Assembly: GCA_947628615.1 (NCBI GenBank)
Contig: CANRAO010000008.1
Coordinates: 1-61,919 of the forward strand
Source of the DNA: an uncultured Clostridia bacterium
Lineage (GTDB): Bacteria; Bacillota; Clostridia; Oscillospirales; Ruminococcaceae
Length of the DNA: 61,919 bases
Direction of reading: 5' to 3'
This document shows, in pieces, positions 20,000-50,686 of this stretch; position 1 is the stretch's first letter, and every line of letters begins with the position of its first letter. Both the position numbers and the translations under genes were made by a program. The notes below the pieces were generated by a model. It saw only the letters and a program-made list of their open reading frames with translations, was not told the origin of the DNA and ran no database searches.

Positions 20000-21478
20000 T
20001 TATATTATGAAACATATAAGTCCTGAACAGCCCTCGTTGATAATACGTTCTACAGCTTCGCTCAGCTTTTGCCTTGCTTCAGGCGGCAGTTTATGCAGCT
20101 TGTTGTGCAGACCTTCGTTTACAAGCTCATTCAGCGACTTGCCGAAAATGTTAGACGCCCATATTTTTTCTGGCGATTCTTCAAAGTCGTTCAGCATATA
20201 AAGAACCAGCTCTTCTGATTGCTTTTCGCTGCCTACGATTGGGTTAATTTCCGTAGTGATATTAGCTTTCATCATATGAATTGACGGGGCGGTGGCTTTT
20301 AATTTTACACCGTACTGACCGCCTTGCTTTATTATTTCTGGCTCATCTAAAGTCAGCTCTTCGGTTGAGGGCATAACGATTCCGTAACCTGTTGCTTCTA
20401 CCTCTTCCAAAGCACTTTCAAATTTTTCGTAGGCATTCTTGATTTTTATTAATTTCAGTATCTGAGGAAGCAAGTCGCTTTCATCATTAATATCAAGATG
20501 AGTGGCTTCCCCGATTATCTTGAAGAATAAATTGCTGTTAAGCGTAATATTCATAACAACAGTGCCTTTTCCTAAGTCCATTTGCTCGATAAAGCAGTTT
20601 GCAATGTTTTCATTTACGCTTATATAGTCTACGCAGTTTTTCACCTCACGAATATGTTCTAAGTTTTTTGTGGCTTCTTTTATAGATGTGAAAATGTTTT
20701 CTTTAAGCCAGTGTGTTTTTTCAAGCGTATTTATCCACTTGGGCATATTTATGTTTATTTCTCTGATAGGGAACTCATAAAGAATCTGTGAAATGATTTC
20801 CATAATGTCAGCTTCGTCAAGGTCAAGACAGTTTACTGCCATAACTGTTGTATTATATTTTTCCCTAAGCTCCTCACAAAGATTTTGAGACGCCTCAGAT
20901 CTAGGTTCAAGGCAGTTTAAGAGAACAACAAATGGCTTATTGATTTCGCAAAGTTCTTTAATAACACGCTGTTCGCTTTCTTCATATTCGTCTCGGGGAA
21001 GATCTGTTATACTGCCGTCTGTAGTCACAACAAGACCGATAGTGGAATGTTCTGAAATTACTTTCTGAGTTCCGATTTCCGCCGCCATATTGAAAGGTAC
21101 CTCTTTGTCAAACCAAGGGGTGTTTACCATTCTAGGGGCTTCGTCCTCAAAATAACCCACTGCGCTGGGAATAACATATCCTACGCAGTCTATCATTCTT
21201 ACAGAGAATTTTGCTCCGTCGTCAAGAGTAAGTTCAACTGCGTCTTCGGGGATAAATTTAGGTTCGGTTGTCATAATTGTTTTGCCGCCGGCAGACTGCG
21301 GAAGCTCATCAATAGCTCTTTCCTTTACATACTCGTTGTCGATATTTGGAATAACCAGAGTTTCCATAAATTTTTGAATGAAGGTTGATTTTCCTGTTCT
21401 CACAGGACCTACAACGCCTATATAAATGTCTCCGCCTGTACGTTTGGCAATATCTGAATATATCTTTTCGCTGTTCAT
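20000..21478 (-). CDS. spoIVA: Stage IV sporulation protein A, spore-coat basement ATPase
   Basis: 492 residues, the length of the Bacillus subtilis protein. Walker A GPVRTGKST with Lys30; the C-terminus ends in GCSGLICFII, as expected for SpoIVA. It hydrolyses ATP to polymerise on the forespore surface, where SpoVM anchors it. GGAGG lies 9 nt before the ATG at 21478. Transcribed 15 bp downstream of the sipL-like gene, presumably as one mother-cell operon. Confidence 0.95.
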   Translation of the reverse strand: MNSEKIYSDIAKRTGGDIYIGVVGPVRTGKSTFIQKFMETLVIPNIDNEYVKERAIDELPQSAGGKTIMTTEPKFIPEDAVELTLDDGAKFSVRMIDCVGYVIPSAVGYFEDEAPRMVNTPWFDKEVPFNMAAEIGTQKVISEHSTIGLVVTTDGSITDLPRDEYEESEQRVIKELCEINKPFVVLLNCLEPRSEASQNLCEELREKYNTTVMAVNCLDLDEADIMEIISQILYEFPIREININMPKWINTLEKTHWLKENIFTSIKEATKNLEHIREVKNCVDYISVNENIANCFIEQMDLGKGTVVMNITLNSNLFFKIIGEATHLDINDESDLLPQILKLIKIKNAYEKFESALEEVEATGYGIVMPSTEELTLDEPEIIKQGGQYGVKLKATAPSIHMMKANITTEINPIVGSEKQSEELVLYMLNDFEESPEKIWASNIFGKSLNELVNEGLHNKLHKLPPEARQKLSEAVERIINEGCSGLICFII

Positions 21479-21493
21479 CAATATTTACCTCCT

Positions 21494-23044
21494 TTAGTCG
21501 AGTATAGGAATGAGAAGCATTCCCCGTTGAAGTTTTGTGCTGTCTGACAGTTCGTTTTCCTGAGCAATAGCAGATACCGATGTTGAGAATTTTTTTGCTA
21601 TTTCCCATATATCCTCGTCCTGCTCGGCATAATACAGCTTAACCGCATAGCAGTTTTCTTTGCTTTTGATGCTGTCTTCGTTTACGTTTATACTTGTAAT
21701 CAGCTTTCTTGTGTCAAGTTCTTTTATATATCCGCTTATGAACAGCTCTGCTTTTATCTCAATTTTATCTGAAGAAGCTATTGTAAACGTACAGTTGTCT
21801 ATATATACATTAAGGTCGGCAGTTGAATTTTCATCGACCTTCATATCAAGGCAGTGCTCAAAGGAAATTGTATCTTCGATATATAAAGGACAGTTGTTTT
21901 CATCTTTTGCAATTGCCCCGATTTCAATGTTTCCGAATACGATAAAGGTTTTCTTTTCTATATTGTATTTGCTTTGAATATTAAACGGCTTTGCCCAAAC
22001 GTCAACTGCGGAATTTATCTCAGCGTCATTGCAAGTAAGTTCCGCCTTTATTGTTCGGTTTTCTTTTATCTCAATAGGCTTTTTTTCCAGCTTGATATCA
22101 GCGCAGTCATAATTGCACATATATTTTGTTGAATAGGCGTCAGTTGCAAGCTCCAGGGTGTCGTAGCGAAATGCAATACAATTTACAAGAAGAATGATCT
22201 CGCACTCTATTTCGCTTGTGTCGCTTGATTTGTTGGGAATAAGGTCTAGAGATGCTATTGAAATATTTGTCATGGCCTCGTATTGTTCGGTTATTCCGTC
22301 AATATCTATAATTTGGCTGAATGGTATAGAAAACTTAACAGTTTCAATTTTCTGAGGCTCATCATTATCAATCTCGCAGTTGTAAAGCAGAGATATCTTT
22401 GCCTCTCCCTTTATAATCAACTTATTTGCAATTATTTTTTTATCAAAGCTGTTTACAATGCAGTCGGACTTCACAACTGAATTGATTTTGCCCTTTGTTT
22501 TGCTTAGTTCAATTTCTTCGGTTATTGTAATTCTCTTAGCAGCGGTTAGTCTTTTAGCTGGGAAGGTCACATATTCCTTTTTAAGCTGTACGTTAAGACC
22601 TTTAGCGCTTGAAATTATATCCGTTGACTTTTCACATTCAAGAATCACCTTAGTGCTGACAGCACCCCTTATGTCCAGCCTTCTTGAATTTACAACTCTG
22701 CAGTTTACATAGTCAGTAGACGGTGTGATTTTAAAGCACGGATTTTCAGGAGAGCATGAGAGGTCAACGGTTTTGGTGTAATTTTGCTTTTGCTCAATGC
22801 AGTTAATACTTGACGATTCGTTCGATAAGTAAAGAATTTTTATAGACAAAGTTAAATCAAAGATAAGTTTTTCACCGTTTACGCTGTGAGAAATTACCTT
22901 TGGATAAAAAGAACACTTCAAAATTCTGAATATATCGGGAAGATAGTCGGGAAGTATGTAATCAAGCTCAACAGATTGTTCGCAGCTTCCGTCGAATGCA
23001 ATTTCGTTTGATATAAAGCTTTCGTGATCTAGTGTTAAATCCAT
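21494..23044 (-). CDS. sipL: SipL-like SpoIVA-interacting coat protein (DUF3794 repeats plus LysM)
   Basis: 516 residues. Repeated beta-rich DUF3794-type segments (about 1-450; ILPDYLPDIFRILKC at the front) and a C-terminal LysM domain (about 465-515: KLYYAEQDEDIWEIAKKF...LQRGMLLIPI). This arrangement, together with adjacency to spoIVA, matches Clostridioides SipL, whose LysM domain binds SpoIVA and brings coat to the forespore. AAAGGAGG precedes the ATG. Confidence 0.88.
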   Translation of the reverse strand: MDLTLDHESFISNEIAFDGSCEQSVELDYILPDYLPDIFRILKCSFYPKVISHSVNGEKLIFDLTLSIKILYLSNESSSINCIEQKQNYTKTVDLSCSPENPCFKITPSTDYVNCRVVNSRRLDIRGAVSTKVILECEKSTDIISSAKGLNVQLKKEYVTFPAKRLTAAKRITITEEIELSKTKGKINSVVKSDCIVNSFDKKIIANKLIIKGEAKISLLYNCEIDNDEPQKIETVKFSIPFSQIIDIDGITEQYEAMTNISIASLDLIPNKSSDTSEIECEIILLVNCIAFRYDTLELATDAYSTKYMCNYDCADIKLEKKPIEIKENRTIKAELTCNDAEINSAVDVWAKPFNIQSKYNIEKKTFIVFGNIEIGAIAKDENNCPLYIEDTISFEHCLDMKVDENSTADLNVYIDNCTFTIASSDKIEIKAELFISGYIKELDTRKLITSINVNEDSIKSKENCYAVKLYYAEQDEDIWEIAKKFSTSVSAIAQENELSDSTKLQRGMLLIPILD

Positions 23045-27686: not shown

Positions 27687-27720
27687 ATCTGCTCGGTTAA
27701 GTGCCCGGGCAGATTTTTTG
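27687..27720 (+). terminator. Terminator after the topoisomerase pair
   Basis: ATCTGCTCGG pairs with CCGGGCAGAT (one G-U), followed by TTTTTG. Confidence 0.88.
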
Positions 27721-27917: not shown

Positions 27918-27946
27918 TTGACTTTGATTAATAATGTTGTTATCAT
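27918..27946 (+). promoter_or_regulatory. Promoter of the pseudokinase gene
   Basis: TTGACT, 17 bp, TATCAT: 10 of 12 consensus positions; GGAGG and the ATG follow at 27972 and 27982. Confidence 0.7.
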
Positions 27947-27981
27947 AAGTTACACGAGAAAGTATGTTTACGGAGGCTTTT

Positions 27982-29754
27982 ATGGAAAATATTCAAAATC
28001 TCTGTATGGGATGTATGAATGAATTGGAGGAGGATGGAACTTGCAGTTATTGTAACTACAATGCAGATTCGCCGTATCTTCAATCATACCTACCGCCGAA
28101 GTCTATGCTTGATGATGATAGATATATAGTAGGAAAGGTTTTATCGTATAACGGTGAAGGTGCGTCGTATATCGGTTATGATACGGTCACTTCTTCTAAG
28201 GTCGTTATACACGAATATATGCCTGACACACTTTGTTCAAGAACAAAGCAAAGTCCTAAGATTATGGTAAAAACCGATTCTCTAAATAAGTACAAGACAT
28301 ATATGTCGGAATATGCAGAGCTTAATAAATCATTATCCAGAATGAGAACTCTTTCGCATCTTGTTCCTGCAATAGATATGTTTGCTGAGAATAATACAAT
28401 GTACGCAATTTCAAAATATGTTGAAGGAATTTCACTCAAGAAGTTTTTGCAGGGTAACGGGGACAGGCTCAGTTGGGAACAGATTAAAAAGATTTTTCCG
28501 CCGATTTTTACAACTCTTAGTCTTATTCACAATTCGGGAATAATTCACGGTGGAATTTGCCCTGACAACATTCTTGTAACGCCAAAAGGTGAATTAAAGC
28601 TGATTGGTTTCAGCATAAGTGCGACAAGGGTAGAAAATTCCGATTTGTCGTCAGAACTTTATCCAGGCTATGCTGCTCCTGAACAGTATAATTCCTTGGA
28701 CTGGCTGGGTACTTGGACTGATGTTTATGCAATTGCGGCTGTACTTTACAAAATGCTTACTGGAGTTTTGCCGCCTAATGCCGCTTCAAGAAAACAGGCT
28801 GATAATATTATTGATTTAAGTCAGATGAGCATAAATATTCCACAGAATGTTTCTAGGGTAATTATGCAGGCTTTAAGAGTAAATCCTGAAACAAGAGTTC
28901 AGACTATTACCGAGCTTGTTACAAGACTCTTTGAACAGCCCGAATATGTAGTTGAGCATAAAAAAGGTGCTACACAAACTATACATGTAGATACATCTGA
29001 TCAACTAGTAAATAACTATAACGAAGATTACGATAATGATAATGACGATGATAACGAAGAAGCTGAAAAGAAAAATCTTATACCTACTGTCGTTGGTTCG
29101 GTAGCACTCGCTCTGCTTGTCGGAGTGGGATTGTTCTTTTTGGCAGAGATGTTTACAGGAGGCGGAGATCAAAGCGTCTCCAGTACTGTATCAAGCAATA
29201 TAACGTCTGTAACAGTTAAAGAGGAAACAACGTCGGCTGAAGGTAGTGATGTAAGCTCAGATTCTTCAAGTCAAGTTGACTATGGAACAGGTGCAGTTAT
29301 GCCTGATTTGAAGGGTCTGGAATATGAAAACGTCAGAGAATCAATTGAAAACGATTTTAACATTGAAATCAAGGAAAAGAAAAGCAAGAAATATGCTGCG
29401 GGTATTATTATAAAGCAGAGTATTCCTGCCGATGTTGAGTATGATCCTGCTAGAAAGAATACATTGAAACTCACTATATCAACCGGAAGCGGCGAATCAA
29501 GCAGTTATGATGATAATTCATCTGAGTTGTATTCAGATTCCTCGTATACCGACAAACCAGTCATTCCTGATTATTCAGGGTACACAAAAGACAGCTATGG
29601 AGAGGTTTTATCAAATCTCGGTATAACATACGTTTTTTCTTTTGCTGAAAGCGATAGCGTGCCTTCGGGTAATGTTATATCAACAAGCGTTCCTGTAGGA
29701 CAGGAGTTTGATACAACATCAGATGATGTATTGACAGTAACTATAGCTCAGTAG
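27982..29754 (+). CDS. Zinc-ribbon PASTA pseudokinase (membrane protein)
   Basis: 590 residues. Order: N-terminal zinc ribbon (C8-x2-C11, C21-x2-C24); a Ser/Thr kinase fold (about 45-320); an acidic Asn/Asp stretch; one membrane helix near 370; and two extracellular PASTA domains (about 435-510 and 525-590). All three key catalytic positions are changed: the VAIK lysine is His77 (VVIHEYMP), the HRD Asp is Gly191 (IIHGGICPDN) and the DFG Asp is Gly209 (LIGFS). The fold-keeping motifs PGYAAPEQY and TDVYAIAAVLY remain. A phosphotransfer-dead sensor or scaffold that may bind muropeptides and cooperate with PrkC is an inference. GGAGG 6 nt before the ATG; its own promoter. Confidence 0.88.
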   Translation: MENIQNLCMGCMNELEEDGTCSYCNYNADSPYLQSYLPPKSMLDDDRYIVGKVLSYNGEGASYIGYDTVTSSKVVIHEYMPDTLCSRTKQSPKIMVKTDSLNKYKTYMSEYAELNKSLSRMRTLSHLVPAIDMFAENNTMYAISKYVEGISLKKFLQGNGDRLSWEQIKKIFPPIFTTLSLIHNSGIIHGGICPDNILVTPKGELKLIGFSISATRVENSDLSSELYPGYAAPEQYNSLDWLGTWTDVYAIAAVLYKMLTGVLPPNAASRKQADNIIDLSQMSINIPQNVSRVIMQALRVNPETRVQTITELVTRLFEQPEYVVEHKKGATQTIHVDTSDQLVNNYNEDYDNDNDDDNEEAEKKNLIPTVVGSVALALLVGVGLFFLAEMFTGGGDQSVSSTVSSNITSVTVKEETTSAEGSDVSSDSSSQVDYGTGAVMPDLKGLEYENVRESIENDFNIEIKEKKSKKYAAGIIIKQSIPADVEYDPARKNTLKLTISTGSGESSSYDDNSSELYSDSSYTDKPVIPDYSGYTKDSYGEVLSNLGITYVFSFAESDSVPSGNVISTSVPVGQEFDTTSDDVLTVTIAQ

Positions 29755-29776
29755 TTTGAGGTTAATCGGAAATTAC

Positions 29777-29810
29777 AGGTGATTCCTAATTTTTGGGGTC
29801 ACTTGTTTTT
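29777..29810 (+). terminator. Terminator of the pseudokinase gene
   Basis: A 10-bp stem with three wobble pairs (AGGTGATTCC against GGGGTCACTT), then GTTTTT. Confidence 0.75.
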
Positions 29811-31033: not shown

Positions 31034-31139
31034 GCATACAGAGTAGGAAATCAGGCGTAAAGTGTCGGGCAGACGGGGAGTTGCTGCTTGAACGAAAAGC
31101 TTAATGCTTGCGGTTTGGTTTCCGCATCCCGCTGAATGC
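31034..31139 (+). promoter_or_regulatory. Tetrahydrofolate (THF) riboswitch
   Basis: The conserved landmarks of the THF aptamer occur in order: AGTAG, GCGTAAAGTG, GGGGAGTTG, AACGAA, GCGGT and CGCATCC-CGCTG, closed by GCAT/ATGC ends. Folate-bound RNA is expected to lower expression of the folate transporter downstream. Identification comes from motif matching by eye. Confidence 0.85.
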
Positions 31140-31185
31140 ATAACGAAGCTTTTCATGCTCCATTATGCACAAAGCATATTTTGAA
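31136..31185 (+). promoter_or_regulatory. Expression platform of the THF riboswitch
   Basis: TGCATAA (31137-31143) can pair with TTATGCA (31163-31169), or the latter can form TATGC-ACAAA-GCATA followed by TTTTG, a weak terminator. The two folds exclude each other, and the first also competes with the aptamer closing stem. Confidence 0.5.
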
Positions 31186-31198
31186 TGGAGGTTTATTT

Positions 31199-31807
31199 AT
31201 GGAAAGCTTTTTTAAATTATTTAAGGATTCAGCTGCTGAGCTGAAAAAGATTAGTACTCTCACAGTTAGCGGTGTATTGATGGCACTATCAATCGTTATG
31301 AGAAATATGGCAATCAATATCACAGCAGATTTGCGAATTACATTTGCCTTTCTTGGTATAATGGCAATTGCAATGCTTTACGGTCCTGTAGTCTGCGTTA
31401 TTGCAAACGTGGGTGTGGACGTTATAGGTTATGTTCTCGATGGCTATAAGGCAAGGGATTATAATTTGGGTCTGCTTGCAGTAAAAATTATAATTTCTCT
31501 TATTTACGGTATATGCTTATACAAAAAGACAACCGGTAAGTCAATTATAATTTCAAGTATAGTTTCAAGAGTTATAGTTGTAGTACTGTGCAATCTGGTA
31601 CTTAATTCAGCAGTACTTTACTATTGCTATACCAATAAAAATTTCCCGTTTATGTCAGCTTCAGAATGGACAGCATTTAGGATCTGGTTCACCCCAAGAC
31701 TGATTAAAAACTGCGTAATGCTGCCAATAGAGCTTGTGATGGTATCACTTCTTTTACCTATGATTTCACAGGCTTATAAAAGAATATTTAAAAAAGCATC
31801 TGCATAA
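31199..31807 (+). CDS. folT: Folate ECF transporter S component
   Basis: 202 residues, five or six membrane helices (TLTVSGVLMALSIVMRNM; FAFLGIMAIAMLYGPVVCV), the ECF S-component plan, with the RITFAF segment seen in FolT-type proteins. It binds folate and docks on the shared EcfT-EcfA module encoded elsewhere. The THF riboswitch directly upstream fixes the substrate. GGAGG precedes the ATG. Confidence 0.9.
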   Translation: MESFFKLFKDSAAELKKISTLTVSGVLMALSIVMRNMAINITADLRITFAFLGIMAIAMLYGPVVCVIANVGVDVIGYVLDGYKARDYNLGLLAVKIIISLIYGICLYKKTTGKSIIISSIVSRVIVVVLCNLVLNSAVLYYCYTNKNFPFMSASEWTAFRIWFTPRLIKNCVMLPIELVMVSLLLPMISQAYKRIFKKASA

Positions 31808-47795: not shown

Positions 47796-48524
47796 TTGTT
47801 TGTAGTTGCAAAAAGCGATGTCGGCAAAACACGACAGGAAAATCAGGACAAATTCTGTATAAAAGTAATTGATGATGAAGTGGTTGCCGCCGTTGTTTGC
47901 GATGGAATGGGCGGCGCTCAGTCAGGTGGTCTTGCCAGTGAGATGGCGGCTAATACTGTTTTTGATCGCTTGCTTTTGAATTACAGAAATGACGCCGATG
48001 ACAACAGTATAAGAAATATGCTGATCACTTCTTTAACGGCTGCCAATACACTGGTTTATGAAAAGTCAAAAGAAGATGAAGACAAAATGGGTATGGGAAC
48101 TACCTGCATCGGTGCTATAATACGTAAGGATAAGGTTTATATTGCAAGCGTCGGAGACAGCCGTGCCTATCTTCTTGACGAAAACGGAATCACACAGATA
48201 ACAAACGACCATACTATTGTTGAAATTCTCTATGAACAGGGGAAGATAGAAAAAGACGATAAAAGCAGTCATGAAATGAGTCATATTATAACGAAGGCTG
48301 TTGGTACCGAACCGGATTTGGATCCGGATTATTTTGAAGTAGAACTAAAGCAAAATTCAGTAATTCTTATTTGCTCAGATGGACTTACCAATTATTGCAG
48401 TGATGAGCTCATATATAGCTATGTATATAATAAAGACCTTGAGCGCTCACTTGAAGATTTGATCAATTATGCAAATGAAAAAGGCGGTAAGGATAACATC
48501 ACAGTAGCAATTATAAAGAATTAG
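47796..48524 (+). CDS. prpC: PP2C-family protein phosphatase PrpC
   Basis: 242 residues, TTG start (GAGGGTGAG upstream). Metal-binding motifs: SDVGKTRQENQD, VCDGMGGAQSGG, SVGDSRAYL, ICSDGLTNY and GGKDNIT. Mg/Mn-dependent Ser/Thr phosphatase that reverses phosphorylation by PrkC, encoded immediately downstream. Confidence 0.95.
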   Translation: MFVVAKSDVGKTRQENQDKFCIKVIDDEVVAAVVCDGMGGAQSGGLASEMAANTVFDRLLLNYRNDADDNSIRNMLITSLTAANTLVYEKSKEDEDKMGMGTTCIGAIIRKDKVYIASVGDSRAYLLDENGITQITNDHTIVEILYEQGKIEKDDKSSHEMSHIITKAVGTEPDLDPDYFEVELKQNSVILICSDGLTNYCSDELIYSYVYNKDLERSLEDLINYANEKGGKDNITVAIIKN

Positions 48525-48544
48525 TGATAAGGGAGGAAAATGTT

Positions 48545-50686
48545 TTGGATGCTAATATAGGAAAAAAGCTTGACGGGAGATATGAAATTACCGAGCTTAT
48601 CGGTATCGGCGGAATGGCTGATGTTTATAAGGCTGTCGACATTATGGAAGACAGAACAGTTGCCGTTAAGATTCTGAAAAATGAGTTTTCAGAAAACGAA
48701 GAGTTTTTAAGAAGGTTCCGAAACGAAAGCAAGGCTATTGCTGTACTTTCACACCCTAATATTGTTAAGATATATGATGTAGGATTTTCAGATGAAATTC
48801 AGTATATTGTTATGGAATATATTGATGGTATAACATTAAAGGAATTCATAGAGCAGCAGGGTGTTTTAAGATGGAGAGACGCTGTGCATTTTATTACACA
48901 GGTTCTCAGGGCGCTTCAGCACGCTCATGACAGAGGTATTGTTCACAGAGACATAAAGCCTCAGAACATTATGCTCTTTTCAGACGGCACTATAAAGGTA
49001 ATGGATTTCGGAATTGCACGCTTTTCACGTTCAGACGGAAAAACGCTTTCTGATAAAACGATTGGTTCGGTTCATTACATATCGCCCGAACAGGCAAGAG
49101 GCGATATTACCGACGAAAAAAGCGATATATACTCTGTTGGAGTTATGCTTTATGAAATGCTTACGGGGAAAAAACCTTTTGACGCAGAAAATCCTGTTGC
49201 GGTAGCGCTTATGCACATGCAGGAGGTTGCAAAGAATCCAAGAGAGATAATAAGCACTATTCCCGAACCTTTAGAGGAAATTGTGTACCATGCAATGGAA
49301 AGAAATCCGTCAAGAAGGTATCAGTCAGCTTCTGAAATGATAAAGGATATTGAAGCCTTTAAGCACAATCCGGATATAATATTCGGATATAAGAATATGA
49401 ATGAGGTTGATGCTCACAAATCGAGCGAATCAACTATATTTTTCAATCCAGTTAAAAATGATGAAAATAATTCGGATGACAGTGATATAATAGACGTCGA
49501 TCCGAATGCTCCTGCTGAAACTTATAATAACTATCCTGATGATTATTACGACGAAGAGGATGAAGAGCCGGTTAGAAAGCGTTCGTATGTTGTTCCGATT
49601 TTGTCGGCAGTTACTGTGGCGGTTGTAATAATTGCAGCAGTAGTAATTCTGTTTATGGTTATTAAATCTGATGCTTTCGGAAGTAATACCAATAAGGTTG
49701 AGATTCCAAACTTTGTAGGACAATCAATTGTCGACGCTAAAAATGAATACGGAGAAAAGTTAATATTTATTATTGAATCAGAATTCAACGATGAATATGC
49801 TAAGGATATTATTTATGAGCAAGATATTCCTCAGGGAACTATTAAGAAAGAGGGTTCAGAAATCAAAGTAACGGTTTCAAAGGGACCTAAGACATCTGTT
49901 ATTCCTGATTTGAAGAATCAGACGTATGAAGCAGCAAAATCTATGCTTGAAAGTCTTAATCTTGTGCCTATGCAGAGTCTTCTGCATGATGACGATATAG
50001 TAGAAGGCCGTGTAATTAAGACCAACCCTGAAACAAATGAGGAAGTTCCTCAGGGTTCGTCTATTACGGTGTTCGTCAGCAGTGGTCCGCTTGAGACTAA
50101 GGTTAAGGTTCCTTCGCTTGTTGGAAGAACTGAGGACGATGCAAAGGCATTACTCGAAGAAAATAAACTTAAATGTGAAGTTGAAAAAGTCGACACTGAT
50201 GAGGTTGATAAAGGAAAGGTTGTTTCACAATCTATTTCCAAGGGAACAAGCGTAGAAAGAGATACTGTAATAACCATTGGTGTTTCTACAGGAAAAGCAG
50301 CGTCTAAAACTGTAAATATTGATGTTTCCGTACCTGTAGGAGCATGGGGAAGCTACAAGCTATTGATATATGTCAACGGAAATCTTGAAAATACTCAGTC
50401 TTTAGGTGATGCTGAAACTGTTGCAGGCGGTTCTATAAGAGTTCCTGTTACGGGACAGGGAGAACAAACTGTATCTATTAAAGTACAGCGTGATAATGAT
50501 TCTGAAATGTACGGATCTTATAATGTAAACTTTGCTGAAGGCACTTATTCAGCCACATCGACAAATTCTAGTGCGTTTACGTCTATAACCCCTGAAAAGG
50601 AAACTACTTCATCTGAGACAGATACCACAGATAGTGAATCTGAAACGACTTCGTGGAGTCAGACAACAACAAATAATGCAGGTTAA
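48545..50686 (+). CDS. prkC: PASTA-domain Ser/Thr protein kinase PrkC
   Basis: 713 residues from the TTG at 48545, which has GGAGG 8 nt upstream; a GTG at 48524 inside the prpC stop is less likely. Active kinase: GIGGMADVYK, Lys42 in VAVKIL, Asp136 in VHRDIKPQN, DFGIARF. An acidic juxtamembrane stretch, one membrane helix (about 345-370), three PASTA domains (about 377-445, 446-512, 513-580), a beta-rich module with VGAWGSYKLLIYV, and a Ser/Thr-rich tail. Binds muropeptides outside and phosphorylates growth and spore-germination targets. Full catalytic motifs contrast with the pseudokinase at 27982. Confidence 0.95.
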   Translation: MDANIGKKLDGRYEITELIGIGGMADVYKAVDIMEDRTVAVKILKNEFSENEEFLRRFRNESKAIAVLSHPNIVKIYDVGFSDEIQYIVMEYIDGITLKEFIEQQGVLRWRDAVHFITQVLRALQHAHDRGIVHRDIKPQNIMLFSDGTIKVMDFGIARFSRSDGKTLSDKTIGSVHYISPEQARGDITDEKSDIYSVGVMLYEMLTGKKPFDAENPVAVALMHMQEVAKNPREIISTIPEPLEEIVYHAMERNPSRRYQSASEMIKDIEAFKHNPDIIFGYKNMNEVDAHKSSESTIFFNPVKNDENNSDDSDIIDVDPNAPAETYNNYPDDYYDEEDEEPVRKRSYVVPILSAVTVAVVIIAAVVILFMVIKSDAFGSNTNKVEIPNFVGQSIVDAKNEYGEKLIFIIESEFNDEYAKDIIYEQDIPQGTIKKEGSEIKVTVSKGPKTSVIPDLKNQTYEAAKSMLESLNLVPMQSLLHDDDIVEGRVIKTNPETNEEVPQGSSITVFVSSGPLETKVKVPSLVGRTEDDAKALLEENKLKCEVEKVDTDEVDKGKVVSQSISKGTSVERDTVITIGVSTGKAASKTVNIDVSVPVGAWGSYKLLIYVNGNLENTQSLGDAETVAGGSIRVPVTGQGEQTVSIKVQRDNDSEMYGSYNVNFAEGTYSATSTNSSAFTSITPEKETTSSETDTTDSESETTSWSQTTTNNAG

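Follow-up and report, generated by a model that had tools for sequence, protein, structure and literature searches.

The window analysed here, 61,919 nucleotides of an uncultured Clostridia bacterium of the Ruminococcaceae (contig CANRAO010000008.1, whole stretch), encodes a zinc-ribbon PASTA membrane protein that, judged from its residues, is catalytically dead, and that stands beside an intact PrkC in one genome, as the initial annotation had proposed. With modest confidence, we take this protein to be a non-catalytic envelope sensor or scaffold from a dedicated pseudokinase family. It probably works in this way, and not as an enzyme, because the catalytic residues are lost in the protein itself and the catalytic Asp is lost in the sampled relatives. 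Its architecture, the fixed absence of the catalytic Asp alongside retained fold residues, purifying selection and co-occurrence with PrkC were all observed. By sequence comparison, moreover, it belongs to an old and widespread family that is most closely related to zinc-ribbon kinases and not to PrkC, a relationship that had not been foreseen. The features of the region are as follows.

27687..27714 (+): hairpin resembling a terminator, 3′ of the preceding topoisomerase gene; pattern match only
27918..27946 (+): promoter-like site, its second hexamer preceded by TG; weak, pattern match only
27982..29754 (+): pseudokinase gene, 590 aa, with an in-frame alternative ATG at 27964; dN/dS 0.055-0.110 against nine close relatives
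28003..28053 (+): zinc-ribbon-like Cys8, Cys11, Cys21 and Cys24; four Cys in 179/182 clade members
28111..28941 (+): pseudokinase domain, spanning approximately residues 44-320
28144..28161 (+): glycine-rich loop, altered to S55, N57, E59, by alignment with active zinc kinases
28204..28212 (+): beta3 V75-I76-H77 where A-I-K is expected, by alignment with active zinc kinases
28321..28323 (+): L114 at the alphaC Glu position, by alignment
28546..28554 (+): H189-G190-G191 where HRD is expected; Asp in 0/80 and 0/39 of two samples picked independently of the residue
28606..28614 (+): G209-F210-S211 where DFG is expected; in the clade, Gly 146/182 and Asp 16/182
28972..28983 (+): juxtamembrane motif T331-Q-T-I334, within a linker otherwise modelled with low confidence
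29080..29154 (+): transmembrane helix, residues 367-391, by structure model and hydrophobicity
29293..29487 (+): PASTA 1, about residues 438-502, Pfam stretch with limits from the structure model
29560..29745 (+): PASTA 2, residues 527-588, Pfam stretch
29775..29806 (+): terminator-like hairpin after the pseudokinase gene, pattern match
48524..50686 (+): intact PASTA Ser/Thr kinase (PrkC/Stk1), GTG start; NF033483 586.1 bits, cut-off 450

All parts of the architecture claimed at the outset were recovered. A Pfam scan of the protein gave matches to Pkinase (4.3e-24) and to PASTA in two stretches (9.5e-15), and the kinase fold was confidently predicted. The predicted transmembrane helix contains the 19-residue stretch of maximum hydrophobicity (370-388), and is preceded by a linker (332-363) modelled with a pLDDT below 50. 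No zinc-ribbon Pfam model matched the protein at E 0.001, so that the ribbon was called from the unvarying CxxC..CxxC spacing and a confident model of the four Cys, the zinc itself being putative; the three clade members without four Cys are truncated or gapped in this region. The VAIK Lys is replaced by H77, the HRD Asp by G191 and the DFG Asp by G209, exactly where the initial annotation had placed them. HRD has become HGG and DFG has become GFS, G190 and S211 thus being altered as well, and the glycine-loop Gly, beta3 Ala, alphaC Glu and DFG Gly are also changed. Losses at these last four positions typically go with a nucleotide site that has been emptied, and the kinase fold of the window protein probably does not bind ATP.

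An alignment of 182 unique members of the clade with 49 active zinc-ribbon kinases was used for residue comparison. K/D/D is intact in all 49 active kinases and in 0/182 clade members. Taken singly, each of the three residues is present in 49/49 active kinases; in the clade, the VAIK Lys (K77) is kept by 41/182, the DFG Asp by 16/182 and the HRD Asp by 0/182. This last figure is partly so by construction, because the 182 were labelled by absence of the Asp, and the fair counts for this residue are those of two smaller samples (80 and 39 sequences, see below), which were picked by similarity or genus. All three residues are lost in 126/182 members, and two more are gapped at the Lys; 38 keep only the Lys, 13 only the DFG Asp and 3 both. 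Four additional members, from small genomes, also keep both; with seven such members, some lineages may still be able to bind nucleotide. Constant loss of the three residues, the object of the survey of orthologues that the initial annotation had suggested, holds within the genus (15/15) and gives way further out. Among the sampled relatives only the loss of the HRD Asp is universal at the sequence level, and we consider it the defining lesion, as the three-residue loss varies and this one does not.

Other positions also differ between the two groups. The alphaC Glu (0/182, Leu in 131), the beta3 Ala (A75, 1/182) and the DFG Gly (2/182, residues 209-211 reading mainly G-F-C/S) are each present in 49/49 active kinases. 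In the glycine loop, the active kinases carry G55 (49/49), G57 (49/49) and F59 (48/49), against S55 (98/182), N57 (167/182) and E59 (173/182) in the clade, where G57 is never found; N57 and E59 are new near-fixed residues. At position 77, Arg is found in 119/182 members, the window protein having His. Residues of the fold, in contrast, are fixed: H189, E234 and D247 in 182/182 and R305 in 181/182 (one gap), and, this gap aside, all four are common to the clade and the active group.

A maximum-likelihood tree (IQ-TREE, 67 sequences) placed 35/35 members, picked for diversity out of 180 with few gaps, in one clade with an ultrafast bootstrap of 97. No active kinase falls inside it, and it groups within the zinc-ribbon kinases, the active ones being its sister group, and not with PrkC; the 16 sequences labelled active without zinc were PrkC-type plus two others (L210 and L213). 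In the full tree, the node uniting all 184 Asp-less sequences had a support of only 0.169, compared to 0.952 for 145 sequences in an earlier, smaller tree. We think that the weak node is due to two sequences with HGN for HRD, L185 and L212. In the 67-sequence tree L212 is sister to the clade and L185 lies among active kinases; both were dropped for this placement, which leaves 182. L185 (15465-17354) and L212 (1496-2851) are degenerate zinc-ribbon kinases and apparently represent separate losses. The neighbours of L185, arranged with it in tandem, are zinc-ribbon kinases with K/D/D retained. Such tandem arrays were seen in related genomes (L175, L176, L178, L185, L192-L195); they comprise between two and five zinc-ribbon kinases, most of them having K/D/D intact and long, varied C-terminal parts.

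The active sister kinases, recognisable by GGFGITY, VAIKEY and HRDISPDN, share with the window protein the four-Cys N terminus (CxxC..CxxC) and EY/F-P after beta3; we found no name for them in print. They differ from it by intact K/D/D and by their C termini, several carrying other domains, for example F5/8 type C. Both PASTA and Pkinase were matched in 78/78 clade members, and PASTA in 0/9 active zinc-ribbon kinases scanned, which suggests that PASTA joined the zinc-ribbon kinase early in the clade.

The loss is old. Orthologues occur in all 15 genomes of the genus, and all three residues are absent in 15/15 (H/G/G in 13, R/G/G in 2). Close orthologues with K/D/D, which the initial annotation had named as the sign of a single recent decay, were thus looked for and not found. 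In a GTDB genome scan, at least 591 pattern stretches yielded at least 574 relatives, of which 80 were kept, chosen by similarity or genus; the HRD Asp is absent from all 80 (Gly 62, Ala 18). Their titles name Ruminococcus, Oscillospiraceae and uncultured Clostridia, with a few oddly labelled records. It is likewise absent from 39/39 kinases sampled across further genera of the bacterial family (Gly 36, Ala 3). Full-length relatives occur in two more families of the order. Outside the order, 20 regions were fetched, of which 19 contained a kinase above 100 bits, and 18 of these 19 zinc-ribbon kinases keep the HRD Asp, the exception being L212. Duplicates were dropped only if identical across the kinase region, and related genomes do not represent independent events. 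The pattern exceeds chance, since it is fixed across relatives, and the dN/dS ratios of the nine pairs indicate purifying selection.

Across the family, 292/297 sampled genomes had some match, PrkC included; presence per genome is inexact, at most 4 candidates having been scored in each. A rescan covered 7 small genomes and the 17 in which a match had been weak or lacking: dead-type fragments were found in two of the 17 (G060 and G070), and no dead-type match in the other 15. Four near-complete family genomes (G191, G222, G276 and G288) gave only PrkC-like matches, meaning that the pseudokinase is dispensable there or missing from the assemblies. The gene is kept, on the other hand, in 7/7 family members with genomes of 0.7-1.0 Mb. 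As it also accounts for half of the Pkinase matches of the window genome, a role worth keeping is likely.

We compared the protein with known systems, drawing on the available parts of PMC12599244 (a 2025 review), PMC9674922, PMC8262956 and PMC3924330. It has the plan common to the PASTA Ser/Thr kinases (PrkC, StkP, PknB, Stk1), namely a cytoplasmic kinase fold, one transmembrane helix and extracytoplasmic PASTA, and differs by its missing catalytic Asp, its N-terminal zinc ribbon and its two PASTA stretches. Membership in Stk1/PknB was rejected: the protein scores 144.9 bits against NF033483, below the cut-off of 450, and K, HRD Asp and DFG Asp are all absent. Among the pseudokinases described in the parts of the review at hand (PMC12599244), the DYD family of Firmicutes and Actinobacteria groups membrane proteins with DYD for DFG, Arg for the beta3 Lys and no alphaC Glu. 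Membrane location and the missing alphaC Glu are common to our clade, as is the Arg for most members, though not for the window protein; by description the two differ in that the HRD Asp is lost here and GFS or GFC stands without a DYD motif. GLW pseudokinases have GLW in the place of HRD (PMC12599244), where the window protein reads HGG. CP1 pseudokinases have a linked COG3899 domain and no transmembrane segment (PMC12599244), whereas the only Pfam matches here are kinase-type and PASTA, and a transmembrane helix is predicted. The membrane pseudokinase EssB/YukC has a non-catalytic function, the assembly of a secretion machine (PMC12599244); likened by description, it shares with the window protein a Firmicutes origin, the membrane and three degraded motifs, but is part of a secretion system, the window protein having PASTA and a zinc ribbon. 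By analogy, the window protein most likely works like scaffold pseudokinases such as EssB/YukC, yet it falls in none of the families tested (Stk1/PknB, DYD, GLW, CP1).

As a non-catalytic sensor or scaffold, the protein may act as follows. Outside, by analogy with their family, the two PASTA domains would probably read or bind peptidoglycan; muropeptide binding is not obligatory for PASTA domains. Inside, a well-conserved kinase fold devoid of phosphotransfer chemistry would mediate protein-protein contacts, and the zinc ribbon would be a putative second docking element. An envelope signal could thus be passed to another protein, or that protein anchored: PrkC, a PrkC substrate or regulator, or some other effector. 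A more ambitious version, which we hold to be possible and rather doubtful, sees an obligately non-catalytic PASTA receptor, the counterpart of receptor pseudokinases, fixed throughout the existence of this bacterial family and of related families, which would decouple wall sensing from phosphorylation and work by allosteric pairing, with PrkC or a zinc-ribbon output. In Gram-positive bacteria, PASTA kinases connect growth with the state of the wall. A long-retained PASTA receptor incapable of phosphorylation would reveal a non-catalytic branch of PASTA sensing, and it offers a natural separation of sensing from phosphotransfer. Bacterial pseudokinases as such are already known; of a fixed zinc-ribbon PASTA family, no description was met in literature searches covering listings, most subscription papers falling outside. 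The family contributes a large group from a lineage left unmentioned in the parts available of PMC12599244, which cites an atlas of 42 bacterial kinase families.

The TQTI motif at 331-334 might be a PrkC site. It is kept by a subset of the clade and rare in the active sister group (TQxI in 63/182, against 1/49 active zinc kinases and 0/17 others). Ile at position +3 from a phosphothreonine is well suited to FHA domains, which made a MviN-FhaA-like reading attractive: the MviN/MurJ pseudokinase, together with FhaA, is reportedly tied to wall synthesis and PknB, links that the window protein might share. The window protein has no MviN channel, however, and FHA domains gave 0 matches in the window genome (93.48% complete) and 1 in each of 6/15 genus genomes. 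We rejected this reading, as such a route is unlikely where no FHA domain is found and the motif is confined to a subset.

The intact PASTA kinase announced for this genome is indeed present, its start lying at the GTG at 48524, with the proposed 48545 being internal. The pseudokinase and PrkC are the only two Pkinase matches of the genome. PrkC, like the pseudokinase, is found in 15/15 genus genomes, and its dN/dS in the same genera is 0.031-0.073. The constant pairing, together with a topology and PASTA module as in PrkC, could point to a decoy or brake, which would lower PrkC output either by competing for wall ligands through its PASTA domains or by forming inactive heterodimers with PrkC through its kinase fold. 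Likened by description, C. difficile CD2148 would be a precedent: according to the accessible text of PMC9674922, this second, degenerate Hanks protein beside PrkC may be a pseudokinase (Ser stands in the place of its D and N), lacks PASTA and alters PrkC-dependent phosphorylation of CwlA. The kinase domain of the window protein, however, groups with the zinc-ribbon kinases and not with PrkC, its likeness to the genome's PrkC being limited to residues 107-358 at 26% identity. We therefore regard this explanation as unlikely.

Equally unlikely in our opinion is a structural anchor of the envelope or septum with no link to PrkC, in which PASTA targets sites of wall synthesis and the fold recruits division or wall enzymes. 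Loss of catalysis with conservation of the fold is in its favour, as is the precedent of machine assembly by EssB/YukC (PMC12599244, as far as available). Gene neighbourhoods do not speak for it: no conserved division or wall gene was prominent among the flank clusters examined, and the commonest neighbour is pfkA, at most 0.9 kb downstream in 46/132 members with enough flank. Neighbours differ between clades and name no pathway.

Another gene drew attention on the upstream side. Upstream sequence of 1.2 kb or more was available for 173 unique members, of which 42 have a single-pass membrane protein encoded within 2.5 kb (38 within 0.9 kb), which in several clades carries its own N-terminal zinc ribbon, the wider neighbourhoods being different. 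A sample drawn from the whole order had it in 3/197 genomes, each time adjoining the pseudokinase (3/14 inside the family, 0/183 outside). A single receptor formed by both proteins in some clades would account for this adjacency, but few family genomes of the sample have the gene, and it is absent from 10/15 genus genomes, the window genome among them, the remaining five being more distant; we consider such a receptor quite improbable. As an obligatory partner the upstream protein was rejected for the window genome, which does not encode it. The upstream proteins form a family of about 250 aa (L031, L074, L058, L115, L139 and others), some with a zinc ribbon; their outer part matched no Pfam family, and the best Foldseek match, an OsmE lipoprotein at E 0.063, is not confident.

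The protein could still be an enzyme of another chemistry, transferring AMP or glutamate like SelO or SidJ. Such repurposing is known (PMC12599244, in the parts available), and the VAIK Lys and DFG Asp are still present in some of the clade. The window protein itself lacks the Lys, the alphaC Glu, the HRD Asp and the DFG Asp. SelO-type enzymes retain metal-binding residues, which makes this alternative very unlikely. Finally, the lost catalytic residues could betray a kinase gene decaying in the window species, a reading practically refuted by the intact ORF, the dN/dS of 0.055-0.110, the same lesions in 15/15 genus members and the family-wide HRD lesion.

The pseudokinase gene is flanked by a topoisomerase IV/gyrase A-type gene (upstream) and by pfkA, and may be transcribed alone, because terminator-like hairpins are found on both sides. 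The region contains 4 such hairpins, compared to a mean of 1.3 in shuffled sequence, and 19 promoter-like sites, compared to 10.2. An Rfam scan of the window found no RNA element overlapping the gene; the sole match was a THF riboswitch elsewhere (RF01831, 31037-31136 (+), 92 bits), just 5′ of a membrane-protein ORF (31136-31807) that is possibly a folate transporter. At 20000-23044 (-), two ORFs resemble by eye what we take to be SpoIVA and a SPOCS/LysM spore protein, and for this reason the organism may sporulate.
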